A stretch of DNA of 64,000 nt from Ereboglobus sp. (GTDB taxonomy: Bacteria > Verrucomicrobiota > Verrucomicrobiia > Opitutales > Opitutaceae): positions 213,944 through 277,943 of the forward strand of contig JARKRC010000063.1 in NCBI GenBank assembly GCA_029974595.1, written 5' to 3'. Positions 13,083 through 60,643 of this stretch are shown in pieces (the stretch's first letter is position 1; every line of letters begins with the position of its first letter). The position numbers and the translations under genes are program-made. Below the pieces are notes generated by a model. The model was not told the DNA's origin and did no database searches. It was given only the letters and a program-made list of their open reading frames with translations.

Positions 13083-13577
13083 CGCGTGATAGGCCGGATT
13101 GGATACCGTTATTGCCCGCACGCTTGCCCCGTCGGCACGAGGCAACCGCACTTGTTTCCACTCCCCGGAGCTTTTCAAAAGCTCTTCGCGCCATGCCTCC
13201 ATCGACAGGGCTTTCACGCTCTTGTCGTTCACAATCGCGTGTTTCGCCGGACGTCCTTTTGTTTTCGGTTCTTTGAGCGCGGCTTGGGCGTTCAGCAACC
13301 AAGCCACCACGTTGCTTGGCACCTGCGCCACATAGGGTTCTTTGCGTTTTTCGACTTCTGCCAGAAGCGGCAGCACAACCCCGTATCCCGCGTCGATGAT
13401 GATTGCTTCATATTCCGGCAACTGCGATTTCATTACATCAAGCAGTTCAAGGGCTATGCGCCATTTTTCGCGAAAATGTCTTTGCTTCTCGAGAGCGTCC
13501 GCCCAGGCCATGCGCGCGCATCGCTTGCCCAAATCTCCACTCCACTTTTTCGAGGCAACCTCAAACAGGCTGTGCAC
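13083..13577 (-). pseudogene. Truncated IS701-like (DDE) transposase remnant
   Basis: Only a middle fragment of a transposase remains, about 165 residues. The order KWSGDLGKR, a FREKWRIALELLD segment, IIIDAGYG (a likely catalytic Asp), YVAQVPSN, GRPAKH and SNPAYHAGQG follows IS701/IS4-type DDE transposases. The N-terminal domain with the first Asp and the C-terminal Glu region are missing. The open frame continues leftward into unrelated sequence that reads through the tRNA. No terminal inverted repeats could be recognised. It is flanked by tRNA-Ser on one side and a sulfatase stop 58 bp away on the other. The family assignment is from motif memory, not a search. Confidence 0.65.
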
Positions 13578-28894: not shown

Positions 28895-30505
28895 ATGGCC
28901 GGAATCCCATGCCCCTCAATGAACAGCACGCTTCACTGGATTGATTACTCAATTGTAATTATCACGGTCGTCTCCACGATTGGGTTTGGGGCGTGGTTTG
29001 CGCGGCACCAGGATTCTTCGGACAAATTTTTCGCCGGCGGCAAAAGCATTCCTCCGTGGGTTATCGGCATGTCCATTTTCGCCACATTGATAAGCAGCGT
29101 GACCTTCCTCGCGTATCCTGCGGCCTCATATAATGGGAACTGGATACTTCTTGTCCAAGGGCTCATGGTTCCGGTTGTGCTGGCCGGGATGATTTGGGTG
29201 ATTGTTCCGCTGTTCAGGAAAGTTATCCGGCTGAGCACGTATGAATACTTCGAGCGACGCTTCGGGTTCTTTGCGCGCATATACAGCTCAGTGGCGTTCA
29301 GTTTCACCCATTTCACGAAAATGGGCACGGTGATGTATCTCTTGGCACTGGCACTGAATTCTGTTGCAGGGTTCAGCGTGCCCGCGACCATTCTCGTGCT
29401 GGGCACGGCCATCATCCTCCTTACGCTGCTCGGCGGGATGGAGGCGGTCATCTGGATGGATCTTGCCCAAGGCTTGCTGATGATTGGAGGAGGGCTCATC
29501 TGCCTGGGCGTTCTTTTGTTTTCCACGGATGGGGGGCCGGTGGTGGCCATCGGAAGGGCGTTGGAGTGGAAAAAAATCGGATTCGGGCCGTATGACTGGA
29601 ATTTCACTCACCTCACCTTTATCGTGATGGCCATCAACGGCCTGTTCTATGGTGTGCAGAAATACGGCACCGACCAGACGATCGTGCAGCGCTATCTGAC
29701 GGCCAAGGATGACACGGGGGCGAAAAAAGCCGCCTATATCGGAGTATTCCTGAGCGTGCCGATGTGGATGCTCTTCATGTTTGTGGGCACCGCGCTGTAT
29801 GTGTATTACAAGACCAATAGCGGGCTGCCGCTACCCGAGGGCATCAAGGCCGACGGAGTGTTTCCCTATTTCATAAAAACGCAACTCCCGGTCGGTGTAA
29901 TCGGGCTGGTGCTGGCCGCGCTCATATCGGCGGCGGTGTCCAGCCTCGACGCCGACATGAACAGCATCGCGGCGGTCGGCGTGCAAGATTACTATCAGCG
30001 TTTCCGTCCGAATTGCACCGACCGAAAGCGTCTAAACATGGGACGTATTCTGGTAGCGCTTTCAGGCATCGGGTGCATCGTGGTGGCATTACTTTATCAT
30101 GCGTGGGGAGGGGAGGGGGTTCTCGGCGTGGTCTTTGAATTATATGCGATCTTCTCGGCCGGCATCGTGGGCATATTTTTGCTGGGGTTGTTCAGTAGGC
30201 GGGCGAACAAGCAGGGGCTCTACACCGGGCTCGTAGTATGCGTGCTCTTTACCGCATACGCCGTACTCACCACCACCCAAATCGGCGCCGGCGATACGCG
30301 GAGGCGGCTGCTCGATCTCGGGAGGTATAATTTTCCGCATCACAAGATGATGCTCGGTGTTTACAGCCATTTCATCGTGCTGGTGGTAGGCTATCTAGCG
30401 AGCTTCCTATTCGAGCCGAAGGGAAGACCGGTCGAAAGCCTGACCATATACGATTATTTCAAGCAAGCGGTGAACAAGAAGACGTCAGCCGGGCGGCGGG
30501 AGTGA
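28895..30505 (+). CDS. Sodium/solute symporter (SSS family)
   Basis: 536 residues, about thirteen transmembrane helices. LHWIDYSIVIITVVSTIGFG, FFAGGKSIPPWVIGMSIFAT, LISSVTFLAYPAASY, GGMEAVIWMDLAQ, YGTDQTIVQRYLTAKD and ISAAVSSLDADMNSIA are typical of SSS carriers that import sugars, sialic acid or uronates with sodium. Linked to a PL22-like lyase and a LacI regulator, it is the likely uptake route for uronides from this locus (inference). A GGAGAGG box at 28878-28884 lies 10 nt before ATG 28895 and supports this start; ATG 28919 (MNSTLHW) is the alternative. Confidence 0.92.
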   Translation: MAGIPCPSMNSTLHWIDYSIVIITVVSTIGFGAWFARHQDSSDKFFAGGKSIPPWVIGMSIFATLISSVTFLAYPAASYNGNWILLVQGLMVPVVLAGMIWVIVPLFRKVIRLSTYEYFERRFGFFARIYSSVAFSFTHFTKMGTVMYLLALALNSVAGFSVPATILVLGTAIILLTLLGGMEAVIWMDLAQGLLMIGGGLICLGVLLFSTDGGPVVAIGRALEWKKIGFGPYDWNFTHLTFIVMAINGLFYGVQKYGTDQTIVQRYLTAKDDTGAKKAAYIGVFLSVPMWMLFMFVGTALYVYYKTNSGLPLPEGIKADGVFPYFIKTQLPVGVIGLVLAALISAAVSSLDADMNSIAAVGVQDYYQRFRPNCTDRKRLNMGRILVALSGIGCIVVALLYHAWGGEGVLGVVFELYAIFSAGIVGIFLLGLFSRRANKQGLYTGLVVCVLFTAYAVLTTTQIGAGDTRRRLLDLGRYNFPHHKMMLGVYSHFIVLVVGYLASFLFEPKGRPVESLTIYDYFKQAVNKKTSAGRRE

Positions 30506-30561: not shown

Positions 30562-30586
30562 TTCACGGAGCCGTGAAACTGTTTTT
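30562..30586 (+). terminator. Hairpin plus T tract, terminator or LacI operator
   Basis: TTCACGG and CCGTGAA (30562-30577) surround a 2-bp centre, then ACTG and a run of six T. As RNA it folds to a six-pair stem with a GAGC loop, a reasonable terminator for the symporter, 56 bp after its stop. As DNA it is a palindrome 62 bp before the LacI-type gene and could be an autoregulatory operator, though the central dinucleotide is not CG. Confidence 0.45.
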
Positions 30587-30638
30587 TGTCTTTCCCTGTC
30601 TGTCATGGGAACACTTATTTCTTTTTTATTTCATCACA

Positions 30639-31727
30639 ATGAATAAACAATCAACAATTTCCGACGTGGCCAAGAAGGCGGGTGTGGCGCTCGGCACGGT
30701 CTCCCGGGTGCTCAACGACATTCCCGGAGTGAATGACGGTATCCGTGAAAAAGTGCTCTGTGCCGCAAGGGCATTGAACTACACGCGGCTGCGCCGCCGC
30801 AAGGTCGCGCGCATGGGAGGCGGCAGGCGCGGCGACGAGCCGAAAAACGTGGGTCTGGTTTGTTTTGGCATGGAGAACTCGCTGGTGCAGCTTCCGGTGG
30901 TGAGCGCGGCGCTGCAAAGCATCGAGAGCACCGTCGCAGGGTTGGGTGGCTCGCTGCTGCTTTCCATCAACCCGAAGGGGGACCGGGTGCCGGCGTTTCT
31001 GTCGGACGGTCGCGTGGCTGGTTTGATTTTGAAAGGACCGAATCAAGGCGAGCTGCCATCGCCGTCGGACAACCGGTTTTTACAGCAACTCTACCGATTG
31101 CCCTACGTGTGGCTGATGGGGCGATTGCCCGGCGCGCCGGGCGACCACTGCAACTTCGACACAGAGGATGCAGGACGCATCGCGGCGGCGCATCTTTATG
31201 AGAAAGGGCATCGACACGTGGCGTTTCTCAACCCGAAGCCCGGCCAGTCGCAATTCGAGTGTCTAAAACATTCGTTTCTCGAACACGCGCGATGGCTCGG
31301 TTGCGAGGTGGACCTTTTCGAGTCGCCGCCGCCTGGTCGGCGCGTGTGGCCGCTGCCGGCCATCACCTCGCCGGAAAACGTGGGCGAACTCGTGGCGCGC
31401 TGGCTGTCGCGTCCGGTGAAAAAACGTGCGACGGCGTTTTTCGTTCCGGCGGACCGCACATCAATCCAACTTTATGCCGCATTGGAAACGAAGGGCGTTC
31501 GTCCCGGTCGCGATGTGGGCATCATCTCGTGCAACAACGAGCAGTCCATCATCGCCGGCTTGAATCCGCCGCTCACGACCATCGACGTGCGCGCGACGGC
31601 GATTGGCGAGCGCGCTGTGCATCAGTTATTCTGGCGCATCGCGCATCCCGACGATCGGTCGTCGTCGCAGGTCATGATACAGCCCGTGCTGGTCGAGCGT
31701 GATTCGGTGCCGGAGCGAAAGGCTTGA
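30639..31727 (+). CDS. LacI/GalR-family transcriptional regulator
   Basis: A 362-residue DNA-binding regulator. The N-terminal helix-turn-helix TISDVAKKAGVALGTVSRV and hinge helix are canonical. The periplasmic-binding-protein-like sensor domain contains NVGLVCFGME, HLYEKGHRHVAFLNPK, FFVPADRTSIQLYAAL and GIISCNNEQSIIAGLNPPLTTI (split here by blades of the fold, not by a frame change). It likely senses a sugar or uronide and represses the unit it ends or the neighbouring operons. The ATG at 30639 begins directly before the HTH; the longer frame from 30573 lacks homology. Confidence 0.93.
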   Translation: MNKQSTISDVAKKAGVALGTVSRVLNDIPGVNDGIREKVLCAARALNYTRLRRRKVARMGGGRRGDEPKNVGLVCFGMENSLVQLPVVSAALQSIESTVAGLGGSLLLSINPKGDRVPAFLSDGRVAGLILKGPNQGELPSPSDNRFLQQLYRLPYVWLMGRLPGAPGDHCNFDTEDAGRIAAAHLYEKGHRHVAFLNPKPGQSQFECLKHSFLEHARWLGCEVDLFESPPPGRRVWPLPAITSPENVGELVARWLSRPVKKRATAFFVPADRTSIQLYAALETKGVRPGRDVGIISCNNEQSIIAGLNPPLTTIDVRATAIGERAVHQLFWRIAHPDDRSSSQVMIQPVLVERDSVPERKA

Positions 31728-33561: not shown

Positions 33562-34833
33562 TCAGTTCTCCCCCGGGTCGCCTTTGAGCGAACGGACAAC
33601 GCCGTCTTGCATGTTGATGCTGAACACCTCCGTTCCCGTCATGCGGTCAAACAGCACGGCCTTTCCTTCGCCGTGGAGGTCACGCCAGGTCGAGCGGGTG
33701 CGGATGCCGCCATCAGGCCAGTAGGTTGTCCATTCAAAGAGAGCCGGTGTCTTGTATTCACGTTTCCATGACAGAGTGCCGGATGGTCTGTAATGGGTTT
33801 CGGTGCCTTTAAGTTGCCCGAGATGATAGGTCGCGTCGTGCAGCACCTCGCCGTCGGGGCCGAGCCAGCGAAGGGGGCCGTGAAACAGGAAACGCCCGTC
33901 ATCGGCGATTCCGCCGGAGTAATGGACAGTGCCGCCGGGGACTTTTTCGATATATTCGCGGATGCCGGCCACCCGCGCCGCATTATTGCGCATGAGCGCC
34001 TCTTCAGAGGCGTTGTCGATTTCATCGGAGCCGCTGAGAATCCATTCCTCGTTGAATTCATAGTGAAGGCACGGCTCGGTCATGGTGGCGATGAGGTGAA
34101 TCACGCCGTTGGGTGTCTGACGTGCGACGGAGTAGCCGATGGTATCGCCGCCCATGTCGGCAGCGTGTTTTGGGAGCTCGTGGCGCTGCGTGCCCGGGAG
34201 CTTGCGGATTTTCCATGTCCCGCCATCATTGTCGGAGATGGCCACCCATACACCCTTGTCCTTGATGTCGGGAGGCGTGAAGCCCTTGTCGGTTTGGAGA
34301 TCGCCGGCAAAGAAGAGGCGTCCGCTGGCGAGGCGGATGAGCGAGGGACGCTGGTTGCCGCCGAGCATGCAGAAGGGGGTTCGGGAGATTTTCCATGTTT
34401 TGCCGCCGTCGTCGGAGACGGAGCGGGGCATGTGGCCTTCAATGTCAGAGCTTTTTCCGCCAAAGCCGAGGAGGCGTCCATCGCGCATCTCGACAAAAAC
34501 GGTGTGGCGTCCGCCAGTGCGTCCGCCGGTGTCGAACCAAGTGGCTCCATTGTCGGTGCTTTTCCATAGGACGGATTCGGGGCCGATGGCGTCGCTGGCG
34601 ATGAGAATATTGCCGGCGCGGTCGCGAAAGGCGCTGGTGATGGGTTGCGCGGAGTAGCCGCCGACCGGTTCGGGGAAATGCGGAAATTTAACCGGGCTCC
34701 AAGTGGCGCCGTTGTCGTCGGAAGTTATGTATTGGAAAGGATAACCGGCGTTGAATTTGTTCATGCCCCAGACGAACCAGATACGTCCGTGGTCGTTCCA
34801 GAGGAGAGGGGCATGATCATCGATATCGGGCAT
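33562..34833 (-). CDS. BNR propeller + MORN-like domain, 3' half of a frameshifted fusion gene (copy 1)
   Basis: 423 residues that align along their length with the C-terminal two thirds of the intact protein at 44281-46779. A sialidase-like propeller shows Asp boxes SDDNGATW, STDNGATW, SDDGGKTW and SDNDGGTW and the motif GGRTGGRHTVFVEMRDGRL. At the end, MORN_2-like repeats (YHLGQLKGTETHYRPSG, WTTYWPDGGIRTRSTWRD) follow. It has no signal peptide of its own. Translation from the internal ATG at 34833 would give an unexported protein, so this half is probably not functional alone. The break from the upstream half is one extra base in the A5 run at 34841-34845. Confidence 0.75.
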   Translation of the reverse strand: MPDIDDHAPLLWNDHGRIWFVWGMNKFNAGYPFQYITSDDNGATWSPVKFPHFPEPVGGYSAQPITSAFRDRAGNILIASDAIGPESVLWKSTDNGATWFDTGGRTGGRHTVFVEMRDGRLLGFGGKSSDIEGHMPRSVSDDGGKTWKISRTPFCMLGGNQRPSLIRLASGRLFFAGDLQTDKGFTPPDIKDKGVWVAISDNDGGTWKIRKLPGTQRHELPKHAADMGGDTIGYSVARQTPNGVIHLIATMTEPCLHYEFNEEWILSGSDEIDNASEEALMRNNAARVAGIREYIEKVPGGTVHYSGGIADDGRFLFHGPLRWLGPDGEVLHDATYHLGQLKGTETHYRPSGTLSWKREYKTPALFEWTTYWPDGGIRTRSTWRDLHGEGKAVLFDRMTGTEVFSINMQDGVVRSLKGDPGEN

Positions 34834-34834
34834 A

Positions 34835-36115
34835 TCAAGGAAAAAGGTCGGGCATGTCCCATTGGTCTGCGCCGTGGCGCAAGCGGGTGCTCATCATGGC
34901 GACATCGGGCGTGGTCTCGCCAACGGCGGTGAACATAACGACGATGAGGTCTCCGTTGTCGCAGGCGACGAGGCCGGGACAGTGGTTGTGCCTGAGCATG
35001 CCGCGGTGGAAACCTAGAGCGCGGAGGGCGGCGAGCTTGCTGGGCGCGGTGTTTTCCGGCGGGGTGGGGAGGAGAAGGCGTTTGCAGAAATGCGGTTTGT
35101 TGGCGGGTGGACCGTGCTTCGCGAGTTTGCGTGTGGTGGAGTTTGTCGGTAGCACGCCGAGCGCGGTAAAAGGAAGGTGGGGATCGCCGGGTTTGGTGGC
35201 AGGTGGCGGGGCCGCGACGATGCGGAATCCGATCGTGCTGTTGCCTTGGTTGTTCGGGACGTCGCGAATGAAGTTTTTGTAGCCCATCTCGCTTTTGTAA
35301 TTGCCGGATTTGGCCTGCCCGGCGCCGGACGGGGCATTCGCGGAGGCCTTGAATTTTTGCGAGACGACCTGTAATTCTTCCAACGGCACCGGCGGAAAAT
35401 TCGGTGGCAAGCCGGCGCGGTTCGCGGAGCGCGCGTAATAGGGCAGATCGTTTTCAAGCCCGCCGCCGCGGATCACGCGCGCAATGCCAGAGGATGGTCC
35501 GACCGGGTCGGTCTGCGGCTCGAATGGATATTCGCCGTGCCAGTCGAAACACCATTCGCGAACTCCAGTATGCATGTTCATAAAACCCCAAGCATTCGGC
35601 TCACCGATGCCGGGCGGCGCCTCGCCCGGAGAGGAGAACCACGTGGTTGTGCCGGCGCGGCAGACGTATTCCCATTCCGCCTCGGTGGGCAGGCGGTAGG
35701 TCATGCCCTCCTTTTCGCTGAGCCAGCGGCAGAACGCCGTCGCGTCTTCCCAACTAATGCCGGCTGCATATGGAGCGGTTGCCGGATCGCCGCGATATGC
35801 GGCGCGGAATTGCTGGAATTGACCGACTGTCACCTCGGCCTCGGCCATGTAAAACGGCTGGCTGATGGTGACTTCGTGAACGGGATGCTCGTCCCAGTCG
35901 CCACGTTTCAGGTAGATAGGTTGCTTGATGAAGGCAGCGCGTGGCGTCTCGTTGGTTTCGCCCATCATGAATTTTCCTGACGCGACGGGCAGCATTCGCA
36001 TGCCGAGGGAGTTTGTAAAAGGCTGGTCAAGCTCCGATGCGGCGGCGCGGGAGAGAAGGGCTCCGGTTGCGATAAAGGCCGAGACTAAGAGAACAAGCGT
36101 GGGAGAGTAACGCAC
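34835..36115 (-). CDS. SUMF1-fold domain protein, 5' half of a frameshifted fusion gene (copy 1)
   Basis: 426 residues from a GTG start with signal peptide MRYSPTLVLLVSAFIATGAL. The main part (about residues 30-300) is a formylglycine-generating-enzyme-type fold: NSLGMRMLPVASGKFMMGE, HPVHEVTISQPFYMAEAEVT, RLPTEAEWEYVCRAGT, and RVIRGGGLENDLPYYARSAN. The cysteine pair needed for FGE catalysis is not in that last motif, so it is unlikely to mature sulfatases. The C-terminal GLVACDNGDLIVVMFTAVGE is already the first blade of the BNR propeller and ends at DMPDLFP. Deleting one A/T base at 34841-34845 restores a full-length protein like the one at 44281-46779. Confidence 0.78.
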   Translation of the reverse strand: MRYSPTLVLLVSAFIATGALLSRAAASELDQPFTNSLGMRMLPVASGKFMMGETNETPRAAFIKQPIYLKRGDWDEHPVHEVTISQPFYMAEAEVTVGQFQQFRAAYRGDPATAPYAAGISWEDATAFCRWLSEKEGMTYRLPTEAEWEYVCRAGTTTWFSSPGEAPPGIGEPNAWGFMNMHTGVREWCFDWHGEYPFEPQTDPVGPSSGIARVIRGGGLENDLPYYARSANRAGLPPNFPPVPLEELQVVSQKFKASANAPSGAGQAKSGNYKSEMGYKNFIRDVPNNQGNSTIGFRIVAAPPPATKPGDPHLPFTALGVLPTNSTTRKLAKHGPPANKPHFCKRLLLPTPPENTAPSKLAALRALGFHRGMLRHNHCPGLVACDNGDLIVVMFTAVGETTPDVAMMSTRLRHGADQWDMPDLFP

Positions 36116-36408: not shown

Positions 36409-37701
36409 ATGAAAACACACTCACTCGTTTTGCGACACCCCAACCTTCTCCTTGCGTTTTTTTGCGCAGTCGCGCTCGTGCCTGTCCCATCCCGTTCCGC
36501 CTCTCTGGAGCCGGCCGAGAGCACTGCGATAATCATCAAGGGTTTGAAGGAATGGCCCTCGAAAAATCCGTCCGACAAACTGCCAGCGGTCAGCGGCATG
36601 GAGACATCCACGGTACTGCGGGCGGACAAAGAGCATCCCGAACTTGGCGACGGACGTGGTTGGACGTTTCATCACCATCCCGACATGGCTGTGTGGCGCG
36701 GCCGTCTTTATGTGGCATGGAGCTCATGCGTAAAGGATGAGGACACATGGCCCAATCGCGAGCTTTACAGCACGTCCGCCGACGGCCACGCGTGGTCGAA
36801 GCCGCTGGAGATGTTTCCCGAGGGTGTGTCCACGCCATTCCGCATGTATTTTTATCGTTCGCCCGATGATGTGATGCTCATGTTCGCCGGCGTGCGGCTG
36901 AGTCGTGACAGGCTTTCGGAAAAGAAAAAAGACGGGATGGTGGTGCGCCGCGTCATGCCCGATCATACACTCGGCCCGGTGTATATGTTGCGCATGCCGA
37001 GGGCGTGGGACGGGGACGAAAAACCAGATGATCTTTCGGGTGCATCTCTGGAGATGTATTCAGCTTCCAATGACAGGGATTTTATCGTGGCCTGTGAAAA
37101 ACTCCTCGCTGATTCCGTTGTGCTCAACCAGCAGGACTACGGTCGCATGCTCGACAGGAAAAATCGGATGCCATGGGTAAATGCCACCGAATGGGCGACT
37201 GCCGCCGGTTATTCGGAATCCTTGGCACCTTCCTTTGGTAAAGCCATGTCGTTCTATCACCGCAAGGACGGCGCAATTGTCGGCATCGGTAAGAGTCGCT
37301 GGGTGACTGTCTCGGACAATGGAGGCAAAACTTGGTCGCGGCCCGTCCGCTCGACGCAGCTTGTTACCGGCACAGCCAAAGTATGGGGGCAGCGCACTAC
37401 CGACGGACGCTACGCGCTCGTATATAATCCGCACGCCAAAAACCGATTCCCTCTCGTCGTCGTGTCGGGCGAGGACGGTGTTACCTTCCGAGACATGTGC
37501 ATGGTCAACCCCGGTGACCAATCGCAACGCTACGAGGGAAAGAATAAAAATACCGGTGCGCAATACGTTCGCGGCATTGCCGAATGGGCGACAGACGGCA
37601 CCTTCGCGGGAGAGAAAAACAACCTCTGGATCGTGTATAGTATCAATAAGGAGGATATTGTCGTGAGCCGCATTCCGCTCCCGGTGCATCCCGCGAAATA
37701 A
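36409..37701 (+). CDS. Secreted BNR-repeat (sialidase-like) protein
   Basis: 430 residues with signal peptide MKTHSLVLRHPNLLLAFFCA. A six-bladed propeller is indicated by RGWTFHHHPDMAVWRGRLYV, Asp boxes STSADGHAWSKP and VSDNGGKTWSR, and RTTDGRYALVYNPHAK. The arginine triad expected of true sialidases is not obvious, so it may cleave or bind another sugar. In Bacteroides, BNR proteins often precede an iron-ADH, DapA-like, PdxA-like and DUF1537 set, and the same order occurs here, with all four partners broken. Confidence 0.8.
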   Translation: MKTHSLVLRHPNLLLAFFCAVALVPVPSRSASLEPAESTAIIIKGLKEWPSKNPSDKLPAVSGMETSTVLRADKEHPELGDGRGWTFHHHPDMAVWRGRLYVAWSSCVKDEDTWPNRELYSTSADGHAWSKPLEMFPEGVSTPFRMYFYRSPDDVMLMFAGVRLSRDRLSEKKKDGMVVRRVMPDHTLGPVYMLRMPRAWDGDEKPDDLSGASLEMYSASNDRDFIVACEKLLADSVVLNQQDYGRMLDRKNRMPWVNATEWATAAGYSESLAPSFGKAMSFYHRKDGAIVGIGKSRWVTVSDNGGKTWSRPVRSTQLVTGTAKVWGQRTTDGRYALVYNPHAKNRFPLVVVSGEDGVTFRDMCMVNPGDQSQRYEGKNKNTGAQYVRGIAEWATDGTFAGEKNNLWIVYSINKEDIVVSRIPLPVHPAK

Positions 37702-37754
37702 ACCGACCGGCGGTAGCCATTCTCCATGGCGGTGCGCAATCCGGCCAGACTCCT

Positions 37755-38057
37755 TTGCATGGACATCGTTATTCTCCTCGCCTCCTCTTCGGCTGCGGCA
37801 GCGCGCAATCCATCTCCGGCGAACTTGCTGCCGCCGGCCTCCACAGTGTTCGCCACTGCGGCCGTCGGCTTGGAGCGGCTCGTGGCGCTCTCTCGTGCCT
37901 GCGGCATTCCTCAGCGTCTTCGCGACGTCGGCGTTCCCGAGTCAGACCTGCCCCGTTTCGCTCAAGAGGCGATGAAGGTTACGCGCCTTTTGAAAAACAA
38001 CCCCCGTGAGCTCACCGCCACCGACGCGCTTGAGATCTACCGTGCCGCGTATTGGAA
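37755..38057 (+). pseudogene. Iron-containing alcohol dehydrogenase remnant
   Basis: Only the two ends of an iron-ADH are left. The N-terminal strand and helix (PRLLFGCGSAQSISGELAAA) is read in one frame from 37755 to about 37848. It joins directly in another frame to the C-terminal part GLERLVALSRACGIPQRL, GVPESDLPRFAQEAMKV and ATDALEIYRAAY. Roughly 250-300 residues of a normal ~380-residue enzyme, including the nucleotide and metal sites, have been deleted. The remnant is too short for activity. It lies between the BNR gene and the DapA-like pseudogene. Confidence 0.72.
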
Positions 38058-38087
38058 TTTAACTATAAAACAAGGTTCTACCACCGC

Positions 38088-39043
38088 ATGCCCGCGGCAT
38101 CCATGGCTATTTTTGAAAAAGGCAGCATCCGCGCCGCCCTGCGCGGCCATGTCATCGTGCCGATGATAAGCCCGCTTACGCTCTCCGGCGAACTCGACCT
38201 GATGGCGACATTTCGCCTCGCCGATCACATCATCGACGGTGGCTGCCAGGGGCTCCTGGTCGGAGGCACCAACAGTGAAGGCCCCTCGCTCGCACTCGCG
38301 CGCCGCATTGCCCAAATCGAGGCCGTCGTGGAACACACCGCAGGACATGGCATGGTTTAGCCGGCATCGGGGTCACAGCATTTGGCGATGCGGTGGAGCT
38401 TGGCCGCGCAAGCCTGCGCGCCGGTGCGGTTGCGGTGGCCGCTCACCCGCCGCCGTGCTTCATCATAAATCCGGCCGAAATTGAGGCGTATTATCTAAAA
38501 CTCATCGATGCGATCGGCGGTCCGTTTTTCATTTACAACATGCCGCTGACCACAGGCATCTCGATTCCGCTCGATGTGATTGGGCGGCTCAGCACGCATC
38601 CGCTCGTGATGGGAATCAAGGACTCCGAAGGTGATGCGGAGCGACAGACACTACTTGCCGACATGCATAAGGACCGTACGGATTTCACCGTGTTCTGCGG
38701 CGCAATGGCGCACTCCGCGCGTTCGCTTGCAGCCGGGGCCGACGGCAATGTGCCCAGTGCCGGCAACCTCGATCCCGCCGTGTGTCGCCGACTTGTGGAC
38801 CTTTCTCTCTCGTCCGCTGTCGCGCCATCCGCGCTTGCCGTCGCGCAGGATCGTGTGGCCGCCGTCAGCAAAGTCTATCAGGAAGGACGCAAGCTTCCCG
38901 CACAAATTTCCGCGCTCAAAGGCTGCGTCAGTCTGCTCGGGCTCTGCGCGCCCGACATGCTTCCGCCGCTCCTCACCACGACTGACACGGAACGCTTCAA
39001 GCTTCGCCAGCGCCTTGTCAGGCTCCATCTTCTGGTTTCATGA
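38088..39043 (+). pseudogene. DapA/NAL-family aldolase, frameshifted
   Basis: Class I aldolases of this superfamily use a Schiff-base lysine to split or join pyruvate-derived substrates. The first part (MAIFEKGSIRAAL, VIVPMISPL, GLLVGGTNSEGPSL) ends at a TAG at 38358-38360. The rest (AGIGVTAFGDAVELGRASL, FFIYNMPLTTGISIPLDV, and the lysine in LVMGIKDSEGD) is in a different frame. One missing base in the GTTTAG at 38355-38360 explains the break. Start ATG at 38088 or 38103. The stop overlaps the ATG of the PdxA-like gene as ATGA. Confidence 0.8.
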
Positions 39044-40064
39044 CACGCTCCGCCAAACCCATTCTCGCGGTCACTATGGGCGACCCAGCCGGTACTGGTC
39101 CGGAACTTATCATCAAGGCGCTAGCCCGCCCCGAATTGCGCGCTGTCTGCCGTCCCGTTATGGTGGGCGATGCGCGCATGCTTGTCGAGGCTGCCGCCAT
39201 TGTCTGCCTTAACCCCGAGATCAGGAAAATCTCCTCTCCGTCCGCCGTGTCCGACGATCCTGGCGTGATACCGGTCATCGACCTCGACAATGTCCCGCAT
39301 CGCGGCTTTGAACGTCGCAAAGCCAGTCCCGCCGGCGGGCATGCGACTTATGAATACATCTGTCGCGCCGTCGAGTTTGCCAAGTCCGGCAACATGCAGG
39401 CTATCGTGACCTCGGCCATCAACAAAGCCGCGCTCCATGCCGCCGGGCACCACTACGATGGACACACTGAGCTGCTTGCCGCGCTTTGCGGAACCCCGAA
39501 AATCACCATGATGCTTGCCGCCGGAAAACTTCGCGTGTGCCACGTGAGCACGCATGTCTCGCTCGCAGAGGCCATCAAGCGTGTTCGGGCGGATCGGATT
39601 GTCTCCGTAATACAACTCGCGCGTGACGGCATGCGCGAGTTGGGCGTCGAGGCCCCGCGCATCGCCGTCGCCGGCCTTAACCCACACGCGGGCGAAGGAG
39701 GGCTGTTCGGAGATGAGGAAATCAGGCAGCCATCGAGCAAGCGCGCTCGCTCGGCATCCATGTGAGTGGGCCGTATGCGGGTGACACGGTGTTTTTCCGC
39801 ACATTGCAAGGCCAGTTTGATTGCGCCATCGCGATGTATCACGACCAAGACCACGTTGCCGCGAAGATGCTCGGTATCTGGCAGGGTGTGAATATCACGC
39901 TCGGTCTGCCCATCATCCGCACGTCGGTCGAGGACGGCACCGATTTTGAAAACGCGGGCAAGGGCATCGGCGATCCACGCAGCCTGCTTTGTGCGCTCAA
40001 CCTCGCGGCGACAATGGCCGCCAATCGCCTTGCTGTCACCGGCTCCGCCATTCAGACCGTGTAA
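39040..40064 (+). pseudogene. PdxA-family 4-phosphate dehydrogenase, frameshifted
   Basis: The PdxA family contains 4-hydroxythreonine-4-P dehydrogenase and PdxA2-type enzymes that act on four-carbon acid sugar phosphates. Conserved parts are ILAVTMGDPAGTGPELI, VTSAINKAALHAAG, GHTELLA and NPHAGEGGLFGDEEI. After EEIR the frame shifts at about 39726. The natural continuation AIEQARSLGIHVSGPYAGDT is in another frame and continues as MYHDQDHVAAKM to a stop at 40064. Comparison with the family suggests loss of roughly ten bases rather than a single one. The metal-binding histidines are on both sides of the break, so the gene is likely inactive. Confidence 0.8.
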
Positions 40065-40131
40065 ACAGATGCCACGCGCACGATTTCTCCTTCGCAAAAA
40101 TTCCGCTGCCGCCATCTCCTGTCCTGCATCC

Positions 40132-41335
40132 ATGTCTCACACGATTCTTGCCGATGACCTTAGCGGTGCGATGGAAACCGCCGCGACCTTCATGCGCCAC
40201 GGTTGGAGTCCCTCCATTCCGCTTGGCGAATCCGCTGCCGCCCCGGCGGGCGCGCCGGTGGTGATTTCCACCGAGACGCGCAACCCTCCCTCCCGCCACT
40301 GCGCTCTCGGTGCTGGCGGCGCGGACCGACGAAATTCGACGGACCGGCGCGAATCTTGTTTTCAAAAAAATCGATTCCACCATGCGCGGTCCTGTCGGCG
40401 CGGAACTTGCCGCCGTGCGTGAGGCGTGGCCGGATCGCCCGGTGTTCATCACGCCCGCCAATCCGCTCCTCGGGCGCGTGGTAGTAGATGGAGTTCTGCG
40501 TGTTAACGGGATACGTGTCACGCAGACTCCGTTTCGTCACGACCCAGGCTCGCCTGTCATGCACGACGAGTTGATACGCCTGCTCACCGCGAGCGGCGGT
40601 CCGGGCGATACTGTCACGCTACCGCTCTCCGTGATTCGCGGGCGGATGCGCGTGCGATGGCTGCGTGAGAAAATAGCCGCGGCGCGCATGGTGTTTGCGT
40701 GCGACACGGAGACAATTGACGACCTCCGCGCAATTGTCTCCGCCGCGCTCGAGGCGCACGACGTCCCCCTGTTCATCGGCTCCAGCGCGCTCGCCGCAGT
40801 TGTCGCGGGGCTTGTGCGTCCTGCCGCGAACGCATCAATGGTTGGAAACAAAAACGCCTCGCCGCCCATGTGCGGCGGCACGCTTTTCGTGTGCGGCAGC
40901 AAACACCCGGCGAGCCACCATCAGATGCGCACGCTCGGTCTGCCCTTGCGCATGTTGACGCCAAAATCGTTCGGACTTGCAAATGAGCTGGCCGCCGACC
41001 TCGTGGCCCGAGGCCGGGCCGCCGTGCTATGCGCGGATTATCCAGGGCTGCCGGAGCATGCCCTGGCCGCGATGGGGGACATCGTGGAGACCGTCGTACG
41101 CATTGCTTTGGTCCGCACGATTTTCGTTACTGGAGGCGAGACCACCCGCGCGCTTTGTCGCCGCCTCGGCGGCACGGCGCTGGAGCTTCACGCGGAAATC
41201 GAGCCTGGCGTGATTGCGGCTCGGATGCCCTGTCCTGAAGGTACACGCCTCGTCATCACGAAACCCGGCGGCTACGGCGACGCCCAATGCCTCGTGCGCG
41301 TATGTGAATGGATTGACGAGGCATCGGCTTCATGA
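40132..41335 (+). pseudogene. DUF1537 four-carbon acid sugar kinase, frameshifted
   Basis: The DUF1537 family phosphorylates D-threonate, L-threonate, D-erythronate or 3-oxo acids. HTILADDLSGAMETAATF and VVISTETRN form the N-terminal start. Then the frame changes: one extra C in the CCC at 40284-40286 turns what should read NLPPATALSVLAARTDEI into NPPSRHC. The remainder (LVFKKIDSTMRGPVGAEL, VFITPANPLLGRVVVDG, FVCGSKHPASHHQM, FVTGGETTRAL, VITKPGGYGD) is intact to the stop at 41335. It is the last of four successive broken genes. Confidence 0.82.
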
Positions 41336-44280: not shown

Positions 44281-46779
44281 TTAGCTTTCTCCGGGACTTC
44301 CTTTCTTCGACTTCACTCGACCGCGCTCGAATTCCACGCGGTAGATTTCTTGTTTCGTGACGCGATCGTACAAAACCGCCGGACCGTCAGCCGCGAGATC
44401 GCGCCAAGTCGAGCGAGTGCGGATGGAGCCATCGGGCCAGTAGTTCGTCCACTCCATGGATCCATCCGGTTTGTATTCACGAGTCCATGACAGAATGCCG
44501 CCGGGCAGACCCAGGGATTGACGCCCAGAGAGGGCTCCAAGCGCGTAGTTAGCCTCGAATTCGGGTGTGCCGTCGGCGTAGAAGGATTGGAATTTCCCAT
44601 GCAGGAGGAAGCGTCCGTCATCGGCGATGCCGCCTGAGTAGTGCAGGCGCACGCGGCCGACCTCGTCGGTCTCGGTGTATTCCTTCACCACCGGAACGTA
44701 CGACGCTGTCGAACGCAGCAACTCCGCATCGGAAACGGGCGCGGTGACGTCGTATTGCAGGACCCATGCTTCGTTGAACTCAAAGTGCAGACACGGTTGG
44801 TTCATCGAAGTGATAAGGTGTATCATGCCGTTCGGCGCTTGGCGCGCAACGGAGTAGCCAAGTGTGCCGCCTCCCATCGCCGTCGCACGTTCTGGCCTCT
44901 CATGCAATTGCACACCAGGGAGAACGCGGGTCGCCCATGTTTCGCCCTCGTCGTCGGAGAGCGCGACGAGCGCGCCTCGCTTCTCGATGGAGGCAGGCGC
45001 CTTGCCCTTGTCGCTCTGCAGGTCGCAGGCGAAGAGGAGTCGGCCGCTGGCGAGGCGGATGAGCGAAGGGCGCTGGTTGCTGCCGAGCGCGGGGAAGGGT
45101 GTTTTGGAGACGGTCCATGTTTTTCCCCCATCGGAAGAAATCGATCGCGGCATATAGCCCTCGATGTTGGAGCTCTTGCCACCCATGCCGAGGATTCGTC
45201 CGTCGCGCAGTTCGACAAACGCGGTGTGCCGCCCGCCGGTGCGGCCGCCGGGGTCGGCCCAGGTGACACCGTTGTCGGCGCTGCGCCAGAGCAACGACAC
45301 AGATCCACGGCCATCGCAGGCGACATTGATGACGCCGTGGCGATCGTGGAAAGTGTTGGTGACAGGTTGCGCAGAATGCGGGCCGACCGGATCGGGAAGG
45401 CCCGGAAAGTTGATCGTGCCCCACGTTGCGCCGTGGTCGTCAGACACCATCCATTGGAAGGGAAACCCAACAGCGTAGTTGTTGAAGCCCCAGAAAAACC
45501 AGAGACGCCCCGTGTCGTTCCAAAGCATCGGCGCGTGGTCGTTTACGTCGGAGATATCGAGAAACAGGTCCGGGGGATCCCATTGATCAGCGCCGAAGCG
45601 CAGACGCAGCCCCATGAGCGCGACTTCCGGATCGTGCTCGGCGGAGGCGCTGAAAAACACGGCGAGCAAATCACCGTTGTCGCACGCGATAAGTGCAGGG
45701 CTATGCTGGTGGCGGAGAAATGCCCGCGGCCAGCCGAGCGCGCGGAAAGTGACAAGTTCGGAAGGGCGGACGTTTTCCGGCGGGGTGGGGAGCAGGAGGC
45801 GTTTTCTAAAATACGGGCGTGCTGGGTCTGGCGCGATGGTGGCATTTGCGCTGGATTGCACGACGGCGCTCGAGGTGAGCGGCGTAACTGCAGGCGTTGG
45901 CGCAGATTCCGGCGGGGGCGCAAGCACGATGCGAAAGCCGGTGCGGCCCTGACCGTGGCGGTTGGGTGTTTTGCGGAATGCATGACGCTCGGGATCATCC
46001 CCGGAGTTTGCGGGGCGTTTTCCGGCATTGGCTGCGCGGCTGACGATTTGCAATTCCTCAAGCGGGCAGGGCGGAAAATCCGGGGGCAAGCCGGCACGGT
46101 TGGCAGAGCGTGCGTAGAATGTGGTCTCGCGGTCGAGCCCGCCGCCACGAATCACGCGGGCGACTCCGGAGGCCGGGCCGACTGGATCGGTCTGCGCGTC
46201 GAACGAATATTCGCCGTGCCAGTCGAGGCACCATTCGCCCACCCCAGTATGCATGTTCTTCACGCCCCAAGCGTTCGCGGTTTCCGACGAAGGTGGTTCG
46301 CTGCCTGACGAAAACAACGTGGTTGTACCGGCGCGACAGGCATATTCCCACTCAGCCTCGGTGGGGAGGCGGTAGGGTTTGCCTTCGCGCTTCGTGAGCC
46401 AGTGGCAGAAGGCGGCGGCATCGTGCCAGCTCACGCCGGAGGCATAAGGCTGTGTGTCGGGATTGCCTATATAGGTGCTGCGGAATTGTTTGAATTGCTC
46501 CGTTGTGACCTCGACCTCGCTAATATAAAAGGGATGAGAAATTGTCACCCGATGCGCAGGATGCTCGTCCCAATCGCCGCGCTTAAGATGCGTGCCCTGC
46601 GCGAATGCCTCAGCCGGTGTATCGTTTGTTTCGCCCATGATAAACGAGCCCGCCGGGATGGGCAGCATTTTCATGCCGAGCGAGTTTATGAACGTGTTGT
46701 CGGCGGGTTCGCATGAACACAACAGAGGCAACCCGCCCGCGAGAAGCGCGACTTTAATATATGGAGCGAAGCAATGCAT
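44281..46779 (-). CDS. Lipoprotein with SUMF1-fold, BNR propeller and MORN-like domains (copy 2, intact)
   Basis: An 832-residue protein. The lipoprotein signal MHCFAPYIKVALLAGGLPLL ends at the lipobox LCSC. Residues about 25-285 form a formylglycine-generating-enzyme-type fold (SLGMKMLPIPAGSFIMGET, RLPTEAEWEYACRAGTTT, GGGLDRETTFYARSAN). Residues about 330-690 form a sialidase-like propeller with Asp boxes SDDHGATW, SADNGVTW, SSDGGKTW and SDDEGETW. The last ~130 residues carry MORN_2-like repeats (SFYADGTPEFEANYALG, WTNYWPDGSIRTRSTWRD). The FGE catalytic cysteines are missing. The combination is one I do not know from characterised proteins. It belongs to the long minus-strand run, between a GH105 and a sulfatase. 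Confidence 0.82.
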   Translation of the reverse strand: MHCFAPYIKVALLAGGLPLLCSCEPADNTFINSLGMKMLPIPAGSFIMGETNDTPAEAFAQGTHLKRGDWDEHPAHRVTISHPFYISEVEVTTEQFKQFRSTYIGNPDTQPYASGVSWHDAAAFCHWLTKREGKPYRLPTEAEWEYACRAGTTTLFSSGSEPPSSETANAWGVKNMHTGVGEWCLDWHGEYSFDAQTDPVGPASGVARVIRGGGLDRETTFYARSANRAGLPPDFPPCPLEELQIVSRAANAGKRPANSGDDPERHAFRKTPNRHGQGRTGFRIVLAPPPESAPTPAVTPLTSSAVVQSSANATIAPDPARPYFRKRLLLPTPPENVRPSELVTFRALGWPRAFLRHQHSPALIACDNGDLLAVFFSASAEHDPEVALMGLRLRFGADQWDPPDLFLDISDVNDHAPMLWNDTGRLWFFWGFNNYAVGFPFQWMVSDDHGATWGTINFPGLPDPVGPHSAQPVTNTFHDRHGVINVACDGRGSVSLLWRSADNGVTWADPGGRTGGRHTAFVELRDGRILGMGGKSSNIEGYMPRSISSDGGKTWTVSKTPFPALGSNQRPSLIRLASGRLLFACDLQSDKGKAPASIEKRGALVALSDDEGETWATRVLPGVQLHERPERATAMGGGTLGYSVARQAPNGMIHLITSMNQPCLHFEFNEAWVLQYDVTAPVSDAELLRSTASYVPVVKEYTETDEVGRVRLHYSGGIADDGRFLLHGKFQSFYADGTPEFEANYALGALSGRQSLGLPGGILSWTREYKPDGSMEWTNYWPDGSIRTRSTWRDLAADGPAVLYDRVTKQEIYRVEFERGRVKSKKGSPGES

Positions 46780-46866
46780 GGGGCGGAAATAACAAGATAC
46801 AGCGCCAAGCAAGGACTCCGCTTGCAAAGCCCCTGCTTGACGGAAATAATGAGCTGGTTTTTTGGA

Positions 46867-51096: not shown

Positions 51097-52026
51097 TTAT
51101 TTATCCCTTGCCGTTTTCTTCGTTTCGCCGCGCTCAGCCAGAGCCTTGGCATAGGCACCCGGCGGACGTGTGGCCTCGGTGCGGGCACGGATTTCCGGCG
51201 GGAGAGAGGCGGGATCGATACCGGTGTCCTTGATGCCGATGGCGGCGGTCATTGAGGCAAATCCTTTCCCATAAGGCAGGGTGCGCAGTTTTTTATTGCC
51301 GCGAAGACGCAGTTCATAACGAATCGAAACCTCGGCGAAAGACTGCGGAATCTCAGCAAGGTCGTTGTCGGAAAAATCAACCACACGCAGTTCTTTCAGA
51401 TTGCCGATGGAGTCGGGCAGGAAGGTGAGCTTGTTCTTGTCCAAGCGGAAATGAATCAGCTTGGTGAGATTGCCGATTTCCCGGGGAAGTACGGAAAGTT
51501 GGTTTCCGGCGATTTCGAGTTTACGGAGCCCAGCAAGGGTGAATACCTGGGGCGGAATTTCAGTGATTTTATTATCGGTGAAATACATTCCTTGGATTGA
51601 TTTCATTTCGGCGATGGCGGGCGGGATATGCGTCAGTTTGTTTTCCTTGAAATATATGAAGATGACATTCTCCAGCCGTCCGATTTCCGGGGGAATATCG
51701 CGGAGGTCGTTTTTATTGCAAAAAAGTTGGAGCCGAGGGACAGCAGTGACAGGGACGGTTTTCCCGTTGAACTCGACTTTGAGCGTGCTGATGCCGTTTA
51801 GATCGGTGAGTTTCCTGCCGGAGAGTGGCAGAATATTATCGCCTTCTTTGAAATTATTCAGCTGGTCGGATTTTAGCAGAGGAATGCCGGTCGCGTCGAA
51901 TTTCTGCCGAACGGTGTATATTTTGAGCGGCAGGTTTTCCCTCGCATAATCAGCCAGCGGCATGGCGTGCCCGGCAGCGAGAGCGCCGATGCATGTTAGC
52001 AAGAAGAAGACAGCGTGTTTTTTCAT
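51097..52026 (-). CDS. Secreted leucine-rich-repeat protein
   Basis: 309 residues with signal MKKHAVFFLLTCIGALAAGH. Eight or so bacterial-type LRRs follow, e.g. LFCNKNDLRDIPPEIGRLEN, YFKENKLTHIPPAIAEM, EIAGNQLSVLPREIGNLT and FSDNDLAEIPQSFAEV. The repeats form a curved solenoid used for protein or glycan binding; no enzymatic domain is present. The start ATG overlaps the stop of the upstream GH2 gene (ATGA), so the two are probably translated together. An LRR protein inside a polysaccharide-degradation operon is unusual; a surface-binding role is a guess. Confidence 0.85.
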   Translation of the reverse strand: MKKHAVFFLLTCIGALAAGHAMPLADYARENLPLKIYTVRQKFDATGIPLLKSDQLNNFKEGDNILPLSGRKLTDLNGISTLKVEFNGKTVPVTAVPRLQLFCNKNDLRDIPPEIGRLENVIFIYFKENKLTHIPPAIAEMKSIQGMYFTDNKITEIPPQVFTLAGLRKLEIAGNQLSVLPREIGNLTKLIHFRLDKNKLTFLPDSIGNLKELRVVDFSDNDLAEIPQSFAEVSIRYELRLRGNKKLRTLPYGKGFASMTAAIGIKDTGIDPASLPPEIRARTEATRPPGAYAKALAERGETKKTARDK

Positions 52027-55000
52027 GGTAGAGGGATGAGTTCGAAGGAGCCGCTGATGGGTTTGCCTTGGGTGGCATCGATGAGATACGCGGGGGGCTC
52101 CGGAGGGCCGGCCTTCGTCCATGCTCCCGTGATGCGCGTGAGTATGCGAAAAGCGTAGCCGTCGCCGCCAGGGGCGCGCTCAAGGCGCACGGCGGCGGCT
52201 CCGTCCACACGCAGGGCCGCGCCGCCGGTGTAATCGAGCCGCGCCCAGTCGATGAGCGATTTGGTACCGCGTGCGATGGGGGCGGATGCCGGGGCCGTCC
52301 ACCAGCCGAAACGGGTTGCAGCGATTTTGTTGGGGAGGGAATCCAACGGGCCCGGGCCGAGCCAGCCAAAGTGTTCGACGGTGGAATCTACGGCGAATTC
52401 GAGTCCGGTTTCCGGCAGCAGCGCGACTTGGAAACCGGGCTGCGGCTCGATGGCGAGCGTGCCGGAGGATGTGATAACATACGTGGTGTCGGCGATGACG
52501 GCGTTGTTCTCATCGGCCCGGTATTCGGCGCGCACGGCAAGCGTGACGCCGCCGGTTTTTTCGATAATATCAAGTTTGAGGAGCCGGGCCGGGAGTCCCT
52601 GCATGAATGAATTCCAGTCGGACTGGAGCGAGAGACGTCCGGTGCGTTGCAGTTGAAAATACTCGCAGAAAGTGGGGGCGCGCCAGACCACGGGAGTGGC
52701 GCGCCCGACAAGGCGTTTGTCGTTGAGCGAAATAGCGGCAATCTCACCGGTGGCAGTATCGAACTCGTAGCGCGCAGGGCCGACGGTGATGATAATGGCG
52801 TCCGCGCTCCGGGTCACAACGGGCGGGACGGCGCCGGTTGCGGCAGGGCCGCGCGGTGGAGGCTGAGTTTCGAGGCCGAGACGCACGCTGCCGCGCGTCA
52901 TTTCGCTTCCATCGGGACGAAGGATGACGACTTCGACATGATAGGTGTGGAGCGAGGAGGCAGGTGCGCCCGCCGCGTCAGCGGCGATGTTTTTTAGGGG
53001 GATTTCGAGTTGGGTGATGGTGTGCGGCGGAGCGGCGAGCGTGGTTTCTCCAGCGTCCACGACATCGGCATCGCGAAACAGTTTCCACGAGAACCTGGAG
53101 GCGGAGAGATCGAGAAAATCATAATCGTTGCGCACGGGGATGCTCACGGTCTGTGCGTCCCGCGCCAGCGGCAGGCGTCCGACCAGCAGCCTCACGGGGG
53201 CGTAAACAGCGCGTGTCTCCCAATAATCGCGCTGGGGGCTGCGGTCGGCATTGACAATGCCGTCGGCGCCGCGGTGGCCGTGCGAATCGTAGATGTGATC
53301 AGCTCCGGCGTCTCCCTCCCCACGAATGAGTTCGGAGCCGTTAGCGCGGTATCTGGCGATGTCGCGCACCGAATCGAAGACACGGCGTCCGTCCACACGG
53401 CGAATCAGCGACTGGTCGGCCCAGTCCGAAATCATGCCGCCGACGCCAGAGGCGTGCCGGGTAAGCGCGTCCCAACGATCTTGCAGTCCGCCGAAATCGG
53501 CCGTGCCCATTGCGTGTGTGTATTCGGTTGTGATGATCGGGCGGGGTGAGACTGCGGCGAGAGTGTCGTAATAATCGCGGGTTTTATAATGCGGCGCGAG
53601 GATGTCGATTTCAGGCGGGAGGGATGCCTCGGTGCGATAGGGCATGAGAATGGGGCGCGTGGGGTCGAGCCCCTTGAGCGCGCGCAGGCAGGCGAGATGC
53701 GCGGAGGTGATCGGATCCTCGTTGCCGAGATCCCAGATGATCACGCAGGGGCGGTTGCGGTCACGCGCGACCGTCTCGTGCAGGCGGAGAAGCGCGGCGC
53801 CGGCAAACGCAGGGTCAAGCATATCGTCGCCGCCGAAGCCGAGTGGAATTTCGTTCAGGACATAGAAACCGAGTTCGTCGCAAAGACGGAGGAAGCCCTC
53901 GGCAGGCGGGTAATGCGAGCAACGGATGGCATTGATGTTCGCCTCCTTCATGAGCTTGAGATCCTGCAGCCAGTGCTCGCTCGTAGTGGCTCGCCCCACG
54001 GCGGGATGTTCGTCGTGGCGGCAAACGCCGCGCAGTTTCACGGGACGTCCGTTGACCCGGAGGATGCCGCCGGTTGTAGTGACCTCGCGGATGCCGATGC
54101 GGTCGGCCCACGTATGGATGATTTTCCCGCCGGAGAGAATGTCGATCCGGAGGTCGTAGAGTGCCGGGGTTTCCGCCGTCCATGCGTCGGGCTGGCGGAC
54201 GCGAAGCGCGAGGGGGGCGTCGAGGCCGTTGCGTGTGCCAGCGATGGTTGCGGCGGCGAAGGTGTCGCTCGCGACCACGCCACCGTCGCGCGAGAGTGTG
54301 GCGCGGACATCGAAGGGCGGGGAAACCTTGGCGCCGAGGGCACTGCCGCCGGCAATGTTGCGCCCGACAAACACACGGACGCCCACGGTGGCGTCGCGCC
54401 AGTTGGCGTCGAATTTTACGCGCACGTCCACGCTCTCGATAAAAAACTCGCGCGGCATTGTTTCGAGCCAGGCGTCGCGGAATATACCGGGCAGGGCCCA
54501 ATCGTCGTTGGTATCAAGGCGATATTGCGGGACGCGCTGACGGACGCGCACGGCGAGGCGATTGGGCGCGCCGGGTTTGAGGAGTTTGCCAGTGTCGAAG
54601 GCGAAAGCGGTGAAGCCGCTGTCGTGGCGACCAAGCAGTTGTCCGTTCAGCCAGACTTCCGCGGACGCCCACACGCCGCCAAAATGCAGCAGCGCCCGCC
54701 GGTCCTCGGCGGCGGAGGCGGGCGTTTCGAAGGTGTGCAGGTAAAATCCCTCGGCGGTCGTGCCGGTGGCATAGGACGGTTCCTCGAAGCCATGCAACAC
54801 CCAGTTCGAGGGCACGGGAATCGGTTTGAACGCAGAGGAGTCAAAGCCGTCCTTGTGAAAGCCGCCGAAGCGGGTGTCGGCTTTTTCAGCATCGGGCGCC
54901 AGTGCAAAAAGCCAGTCGCCGTTGAGCGAGTGGCGCATGGAGGGGGCGGCGATTCCGATGGCTGCGCGACCGGTCACAAGCGGGTGCAAAACCTGCATCA

Positions 55001-55052
55001 GAAGAAATGCGGGAAGAAAATGCACTGGAACAGAGCGAAGGCGGAATGGCAT
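52023..55052 (-). CDS. GH2 beta-galactosidase-type glycoside hydrolase
   Basis: 1009 residues with a signal-like N-terminus (MPFRLRSVPVHFLPAFLLMQ). The architecture is that of LacZ-type GH2: sugar-binding jelly roll (SLNGDWLFALAPDAEKADTR, PVPSNWVLHGFEEPSYATG, GVWASAEVWLNGQLLGRHDS), immunoglobulin-like domains, and a TIM barrel with the acid/base Glu in IIWDLGNEDP and the nucleophile in TTEYTHAMG. A C-terminal beta-sandwich resembling the small-chain domain of beta-galactosidase follows (RSADAIIITVGPARYEFD). It probably removes beta-linked galactose, for example from galactan or arabinogalactan side chains of rhamnogalacturonan I. It overlaps the LRR gene by 4 bp. Confidence 0.92.
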   Translation of the reverse strand: MPFRLRSVPVHFLPAFLLMQVLHPLVTGRAAIGIAAPSMRHSLNGDWLFALAPDAEKADTRFGGFHKDGFDSSAFKPIPVPSNWVLHGFEEPSYATGTTAEGFYLHTFETPASAAEDRRALLHFGGVWASAEVWLNGQLLGRHDSGFTAFAFDTGKLLKPGAPNRLAVRVRQRVPQYRLDTNDDWALPGIFRDAWLETMPREFFIESVDVRVKFDANWRDATVGVRVFVGRNIAGGSALGAKVSPPFDVRATLSRDGGVVASDTFAAATIAGTRNGLDAPLALRVRQPDAWTAETPALYDLRIDILSGGKIIHTWADRIGIREVTTTGGILRVNGRPVKLRGVCRHDEHPAVGRATTSEHWLQDLKLMKEANINAIRCSHYPPAEGFLRLCDELGFYVLNEIPLGFGGDDMLDPAFAGAALLRLHETVARDRNRPCVIIWDLGNEDPITSAHLACLRALKGLDPTRPILMPYRTEASLPPEIDILAPHYKTRDYYDTLAAVSPRPIITTEYTHAMGTADFGGLQDRWDALTRHASGVGGMISDWADQSLIRRVDGRRVFDSVRDIARYRANGSELIRGEGDAGADHIYDSHGHRGADGIVNADRSPQRDYWETRAVYAPVRLLVGRLPLARDAQTVSIPVRNDYDFLDLSASRFSWKLFRDADVVDAGETTLAAPPHTITQLEIPLKNIAADAAGAPASSLHTYHVEVVILRPDGSEMTRGSVRLGLETQPPPRGPAATGAVPPVVTRSADAIIITVGPARYEFDTATGEIAAISLNDKRLVGRATPVVWRAPTFCEYFQLQRTGRLSLQSDWNSFMQGLPARLLKLDIIEKTGGVTLAVRAEYRADENNAVIADTTYVITSSGTLAIEPQPGFQVALLPETGLEFAVDSTVEHFGWLGPGPLDSLPNKIAATRFGWWTAPASAPIARGTKSLIDWARLDYTGGAALRVDGAAAVRLERAPGGDGYAFRILTRITGAWTKAGPPEPPAYLIDATQGKPISGSFELIPLP

Positions 55053-55239
55053 GAGGCTTATACTTATATTATCTGAAGAAGGGGGCCATCGGGCAGGGGC
55101 TTGGGCGGCGGCATATTCGAAAAGGGAGGTGTTTTTGGAGGACCTTGTCGATGTTGGGAAACTGTCGAGAAATACTATTCCCTGCGGGTTGCGGAAGTTT
55201 TGGGAAGATATCCCTGCCGGGAAATGATAATGGTGCGGA

Positions 55240-56409: not shown

Positions 56410-56480
56410 GTGAAAGCGAGGAGGTGATTGTTTTTCGTGAGGCCGTGCAGAGAGGCATCGGAGAGAGGCTCCTATCGTGA

Positions 56481-57662: not shown

Positions 57663-57709
57663 GGCGGGGGAGTATGATTGTGGGAAGAAAAGGATGCGGG
57701 CGGGTCTGC

Positions 57710-59449: not shown

Positions 59450-59467
59450 GCGACCGAAAAAGATACT

Positions 59468-60631: not shown

Positions 60632-60643
60632 GATGCGTGTTTA

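Follow-up and report, generated by a model that had tools for sequence, protein, structure and literature searches.

The window, by which we mean the whole 64,000-nt stretch of Ereboglobus sp. DNA analyzed here (contig JARKRC010000063.1; all coordinates are positions in it), carries a plus-strand operon that opens with an intact BNR gene for a BT_1020-like β-propeller glycosidase (36409-37701; PF24067, 2.4e-33; residues 44-408 of BT_1020 (5mqr), 2e-48). It is followed by the remnant of an iron-containing alcohol dehydrogenase gene (Fe-ADH, 37726-38055) and by three frameshifted genes, namely a DapA/NAL-superfamily aldolase-like gene (38088-39043), a PdxA2-like dehydrogenase gene (39040-40064), and a DUF1537 (four-carbon acid sugar) kinase gene (40132-41335). 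Before the operon lie two intact plus-strand genes, one encoding an SSF sodium:solute symporter that is likely the importer of the module (28895-30505; PF00474, 7.5e-40) and the other a LacI-family regulator (30573-31727; PF00356/PF13377), together with a divergently oriented minus-strand gene encoding a protein with an FGE-sulfatase domain and BNR (33562-36115). All of these genes belong to a block shared with G236, the genome of another genus of the same family; it occupies the window from 13565 to 64000 and goes on to about 91626 (window numbering) on the same contig. A scan for promoters and terminators returned nothing above chance.

When the kinase piece was searched in 252 genomes of the family, 82 of them gave matches (the genome of origin included), and the sole close relative was the G236 copy, with 86% protein identity and an open frame. 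G236 was used as the reference for all lesion calls, by pairwise alignment. There, undamaged genes for Fe-ADH (394 aa), the DapA-like protein (318 aa), PdxA, and DUF1537 (400 aa) follow one another in the same order as in the window, behind an intact BNR gene, which answers the question of whether a close relative retains the operon. The first-pass annotation had described four adjacent genes broken at particular places behind an intact BNR gene, and a frame-by-frame reading and the alignment bear this out. At 430 aa, the BNR protein is complete, like its G236 counterpart. The middle of the Fe-ADH gene was indeed lost, through an 845-bp deletion at 37842/37843 with two-base identity at the joint; the DapA-like gene lacks the single base expected (at ~38359); the loss of about ten bases from the PdxA gene proves to be one of exactly 10 bp (at ~39728); and the one base said to have been gained by the DUF1537 gene is an extra bp at ~40286, so that its reading frame is no longer continuous. 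Three further changes had been overlooked: an additional 10-bp deletion in the Fe-ADH gene (37777/37778), the substitution of its stop codon, and one base inserted into a short run of A (34841), which splits the FGE/BNR gene, whose G236 counterpart encodes an intact protein of 850 aa. We also considered a repeat-mediated origin of the large Fe-ADH deletion, given that the BLAST pieces overlap by 16 bases and a 15-base near-repeat lies nearby, but dropped it because the exact joint has two shared bases only.

Each neighbor had been said to retain family motifs on both sides of its lesion. This holds for the DapA-like pieces (DHDPS, 8e-9 and 8e-21) and for the PdxA pieces (1e-54 for profile positions 2-189 and 2e-35 for 193-286). 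It also holds for the DUF1537 gene, where both SBD_N (3.6e-5 and 9e-30) and NBD_C (1e-12) are present, in two pieces, with the N-terminal SBD_N match slightly below the curated cut-off. In the Fe-ADH gene, the C-terminus matches ADH_Fe_C (4e-10) and a Pfam search with the N-terminal stub gave no match. All four genes thus show the signs of pseudogenes, i.e. family homology flanking a frame-breaking lesion and an intact orthologue, the N-terminal side of Fe-ADH being recognized by the G236 alignment only.

In order to place these lesions in the context of the shared block, we used a curated list of 41 genes (4 from the operon and 37 others), which left out overlapping ORFs on the opposite strand and the region at 61.8-64.5 kb, where the choice of frame is ambiguous. 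All four operon genes are clearly broken, versus 3 of the 37 others (Fisher p = 3.5e-4); counting two genes with altered C-termini raises the latter to 5 of 37 (p ~1.2e-3, by hand). These p values are descriptive, because the operon had been pointed out beforehand by the first-pass annotation. Outside the operon, 1-bp changes break the FGE/BNR gene and, near 80148, a gene of 563 aa, and a 191-bp gap interrupts a gene of 2305 aa near 72297; the two genes that differ from G236 at the C-terminus only are located near 22177 and at 85961-88010. The remaining indels of the 78-kb block are mostly intergenic.

The annotation had also called the decay recent, for which we find moderate support. Compared with G236, the dN/dS values of ADH (0.209), the DapA-like gene (0.182), and PdxA (0.196) are close to the background of other block genes (median 0.158, IQR 0.12-0.22), whereas that of DUF1537 (0.432) is the highest of all 41 genes. 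Pooled, the operon reaches 0.254 vs 0.170 for the background (Fisher test on changes, p = 0.050). None of 1168 aligned operon codons has turned into a stop; because only ~2.4 stops are expected for genes neutral throughout (P 0.09), this is weak evidence of recency, and we rejected it as proof of recent loss. Both observations fit a loss late in the divergence of the two genomes. The high value of DUF1537 may indicate an older decay of that gene, which would then have been the first lost, or simply fast evolution.

The block (13565 to ~91626, 78 kb) matches G236 collinearly, with 88-94% identity, and its dS is 0.21 overall, compared with 0.477 for rpoB and 0.925 for the housekeeping pdxA of the two genomes. 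Genes flanking the block show 68-85% identity to G236 and 70-88% to same-genus genomes. We searched the same-genus genomes G001, G002, and G003, one of which is 65% complete, and found in them neither the block, nor DUF1537, nor a BT_1020-like gene. As is typical of a genomic island, identity to another genus is therefore far above that of core genes and the three genomes of its own genus are without the block. Judging from its gene content, which includes five Pec_lyase genes, two GH28, two GH88, sulfatases, the SSF symporter, the LacI regulator, and FGE/BNR proteins, the block is a pectin-type island devoted to pectin degradation. Its left edge lies 690 bp past a tRNA-Ser gene (12784-12875), beside what by eye is a transposase-like remnant. 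The block was probably acquired horizontally, and the operon module decayed afterwards.

Two rival accounts need to be weighed here. If the lesions were artefacts of assembly or sequencing, some of the four genes would be intact in the living organism. The assembly is a draft of 77 contigs, and single-base lesions occur twice in the operon (DapA-like and DUF1537) and twice outside it (34841 and ~80148), the outside ones in short homopolymers. The 1-bp lesions of the DapA-like and DUF1537 genes could be sequencing errors. However, the 845-bp and 10-bp deletions in Fe-ADH and the 10-bp deletion in PdxA are clean, which excludes base-calling error for these, and frames are kept in 32 to 34 of the 37 other block genes over 78 kb; we consider an artefact very unlikely. 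It is equally improbable that the block was inherited vertically, with no horizontal transfer, and has since disappeared from the rest of the genus. The comparison within the genus does comprise just three genomes, one of them incomplete, and no integrase or attachment site was recognized at the block ends, where the right-end ORFs were inspected by eye; nevertheless, the dS of the block is well under that of both core genes from the same genome pair, and the flanking genes reach only 68-85% identity to G236. We therefore favor the reading that the four genes have truly, and fairly recently, become pseudogenes as a catabolic module shared by lateral transfer decayed, with a probability of about 0.8, a figure that excludes the nature of the substrate. 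The long deletions and the disabling of one linked four-enzyme set likewise support the earlier suggestion that one pathway was really lost. That pathway is not vitamin B6 synthesis, a candidate that we rejected: a separate, intact housekeeping pdxA is present elsewhere in the Ereboglobus genome, in which no second DUF1537 gene was found, and therefore a catabolic side route was lost and B6 synthesis was not.

The intact G236 copies were used to examine the identity of the enzymes. The nearest structures to PdxA are 4jqp (2e-88), 2hi1 (1e-83), and 6e85 (5e-80), vs 1e-58 for 1ps6; since 4jqp and 2hi1 represent PdxA2 and 1ps6 biosynthetic PdxA, the protein is nearer to the PdxA2/D-threonate-4-phosphate dehydrogenase structures than to biosynthetic PdxA. 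The model PRK03371 (cut-off 583 bits) was scanned with the two window PdxA pieces only, yielding 198 and 93 bits, and other PdxA models scored higher. For the kinase, D-threonate kinase is the best NCBIfam model (156.5 bits, vs 100 for 3-oxo-tetronate kinase), although the DtnK equivalog cut-off of 450 bits is not reached. The best solved relatives of Fe-ADH are lactaldehyde reductase structures (263.3 bits with the NCBIfam model, cut-off 523), and those of the DapA-like protein are dihydrodipicolinate synthase, N-acetylneuraminate lyase, and ketodeoxy-acid aldolases, including ketodeoxy-galactonate aldolase.

The N-terminal domain of BT_1020 from Bacteroides thetaiotaomicron is reportedly the GH143 Dha hydrolase of rhamnogalacturonan II (RG-II) breakdown. 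A protein from another locus with the same gene cluster matches BT_1020 residues 28-606 at 9e-120. Among the polar positions that are near-invariant in 26 such cluster-type proteins, the window BNR protein keeps 29 and has changed 17, and it is without the C-terminal Sialidase-like_CBM domain found in 5 of 5 cluster-type proteins tested. By these comparisons it is a divergent BT_1020 relative, and Dha hydrolysis is only predicted for it. GH143 is found together with other RG-II families (PMC7922503), and within plants Dha is confined to RG-II (PMC12168206).

In a set of 80 named loci, Fe-ADH, DapA-like, PdxA, and DUF1537 genes are repeatedly grouped, both in Opitutales and in Bacteroidota, and in L024, L028, L034, and L090 a BT_1020-like gene lies near the four. 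A survey of the 252 genomes of the family gave strong BT_1020-like matches at 60 places, spread over 47 genomes (hand count), and all 60 were examined. Clusters of all five genes, on the same strand and in the same order, occupy 21 of the 60 places (one has a symporter interposed); at two further places, each at the end of a contig, PdxA is a direct neighbor, and 37 lie away from the module, 11 of them scoring equally high. Relatives of the SSF symporter are found beside 17 of the 21 clusters and relatives of the LacI regulator at 8. A DUF1537 match is present in 34 of the 47 genomes with a strong BT_1020-like match vs 48 of the 205 without (p = 5e-10 from hand counts, relatedness ignored). 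In the window the gene order is ADH, DapA, PdxA, DUF1537, whereas in the 21 clusters DUF1537 precedes PdxA (ADH, DapA, DUF1537, PdxA); in view of this order and of the divergent BNR protein, the acid released in this island may differ.

We propose that the glycosidase would free a 3-deoxy-2-keto sugar acid, for which Dha of RG-II is the foremost candidate, with about an even chance of being right, and that the SSF symporter would import it. The DapA-like aldolase could then split Dha by a retro-aldol reaction into pyruvate and a four-carbon semialdehyde acid of threo form, which the FucO-like Fe-ADH would reduce to D-threonate. The DUF1537 kinase would convert the latter to D-threonate 4-phosphate, and the PdxA2-like enzyme would oxidize it with loss of CO2 to dihydroxyacetone phosphate (DHAP). 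In such a scheme each enzyme would have a role and nothing outside the set would be required except general carbon metabolism. The stereochemistry would be consistent by reasoning, given that the two centres retained of the lyxo acid match D-threonate. No Dha catabolic route was found in the open-access PubMed Central literature searched, including PMC7954711, PMC6353982, PMC7263609, PMC7922503, and PMC12168206.

The annotation had called the operon one of four-carbon-acid-sugar type. We refine that label in that a ketodeoxy sugar acid, and not free C4 acids, was probably the input of the gene set. Were it a four-carbon acid sugar operon proper, free D-threonate or D-erythronate would have been used and the operon lost with its substrate, the aldolase and ADH being unrelated passengers. 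Indeed, the DUF1537-PdxA pair occurs without ADH and DapA-like genes in other loci (e.g. L043, L045, L061, L068, and L171-L173), and DUF1537 kinases act on four-carbon acid sugars (PMC7954711). Yet ADH and DapA-like genes stand directly beside the pair in the 21 family loci that include a BT_1020-like gene, and also in Bacteroidota (for example at L034 and L090), so that all four look like one pathway, and the passenger explanation appears doubtful. It is possible, if on the unlikely side, that the ketodeoxy acid is Kdo or another 2-keto-3-deoxy acid instead of Dha: the matches of the DapA-like protein span dihydrodipicolinate synthase, N-acetylneuraminate lyase, and ketodeoxy-galactonate aldolase, and the BNR protein of the window is divergent. 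By reasoning, however, a C4 acid suited to the kinase and PdxA2 needs a carboxylate at the far end, whereas Kdo would yield the pentose D-arabinose.

Returning to Dha, we give even odds to the broader proposal that Fe-ADH, the DapA-like aldolase, DUF1537, PdxA2, a GH143-type glycosidase, and an SSF symporter, often with LacI, form a complete Dha route, so far undescribed in the open-access literature searched; the window would then document how one lineage, after the route had spread laterally, recently lost it. If true, this gene set would explain the bacterial use of one of the rarest plant-wall sugars. Everything from ADH onward is dead, and therefore the acid would no longer be usable by the proposed route, though the hydrolase, symporter, and regulator genes were left behind. 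The pair of intact and broken copies also illustrates, in nature, how a degradation block shared by lateral transfer can lose the intracellular half first.

The closest known system is the D-threonate pathway, reportedly described by Zhang et al. in 2016 and composed of a DUF1537 kinase (DtnK) and PdxA2. The same two enzyme families are adjacent here, but a DapA-like aldolase and Fe-ADH are added, a BT_1020-like glycosidase and an SSF symporter are frequent companions, and the window copies of the four enzyme genes are all disrupted. As in aldolases of the DapA/N-acetylneuraminate lyase superfamily, the DHDPS family is recognized on both halves of the window gene, with no NCBIfam equivalog cut-off reached. 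The iron-dependent alcohol dehydrogenase FucO is the nearest solved relative of the module Fe-ADH, which scores below the cut-off and presumably reduces a hydroxy-acid aldehyde. Finally, the window BNR protein shares the PF24067 propeller with BT_1020 and is shorter.

Besides the four broken enzyme genes of the operon, its divergent, adjoining FGE-sulfatase/BNR gene (33562-36115) is also frameshifted, by 1 bp in a short A-run, unlike the paralogue at 44281-46827, whose frame is intact. Two further genes of the block shared with G236, a genome of another genus in the same family that carries the operon intact, differ from it in frame. Both are in loci L137/L138, beyond the window (coordinates continued in window numbering): a 2305-aa ORF (69607-76312) with a 191-bp gap, and a 563-aa ORF (78666-80356) with a 1-bp change within a T-run.

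A tRNA-Ser gene followed by a transposase-like remnant (12784-13577) lies at the left edge of the shared block, and part of this stretch is found again at several places in G236, with ~75% identity. The short stretch at 5000-5120, which has many matches in every one of the five genomes searched, is a dispersed repeat.

Five Pec_lyase-family genes are arranged in tandem on the minus strand (55240-61813). The ~3.3-kb segment at 51965-55238, containing a 1009-aa ORF (52023-55052) that by eye resembles a GH2-type glycosidase, has no counterpart within the collinear G236 block, reflecting either a gain in the Ereboglobus sp. lineage or a loss in G236.
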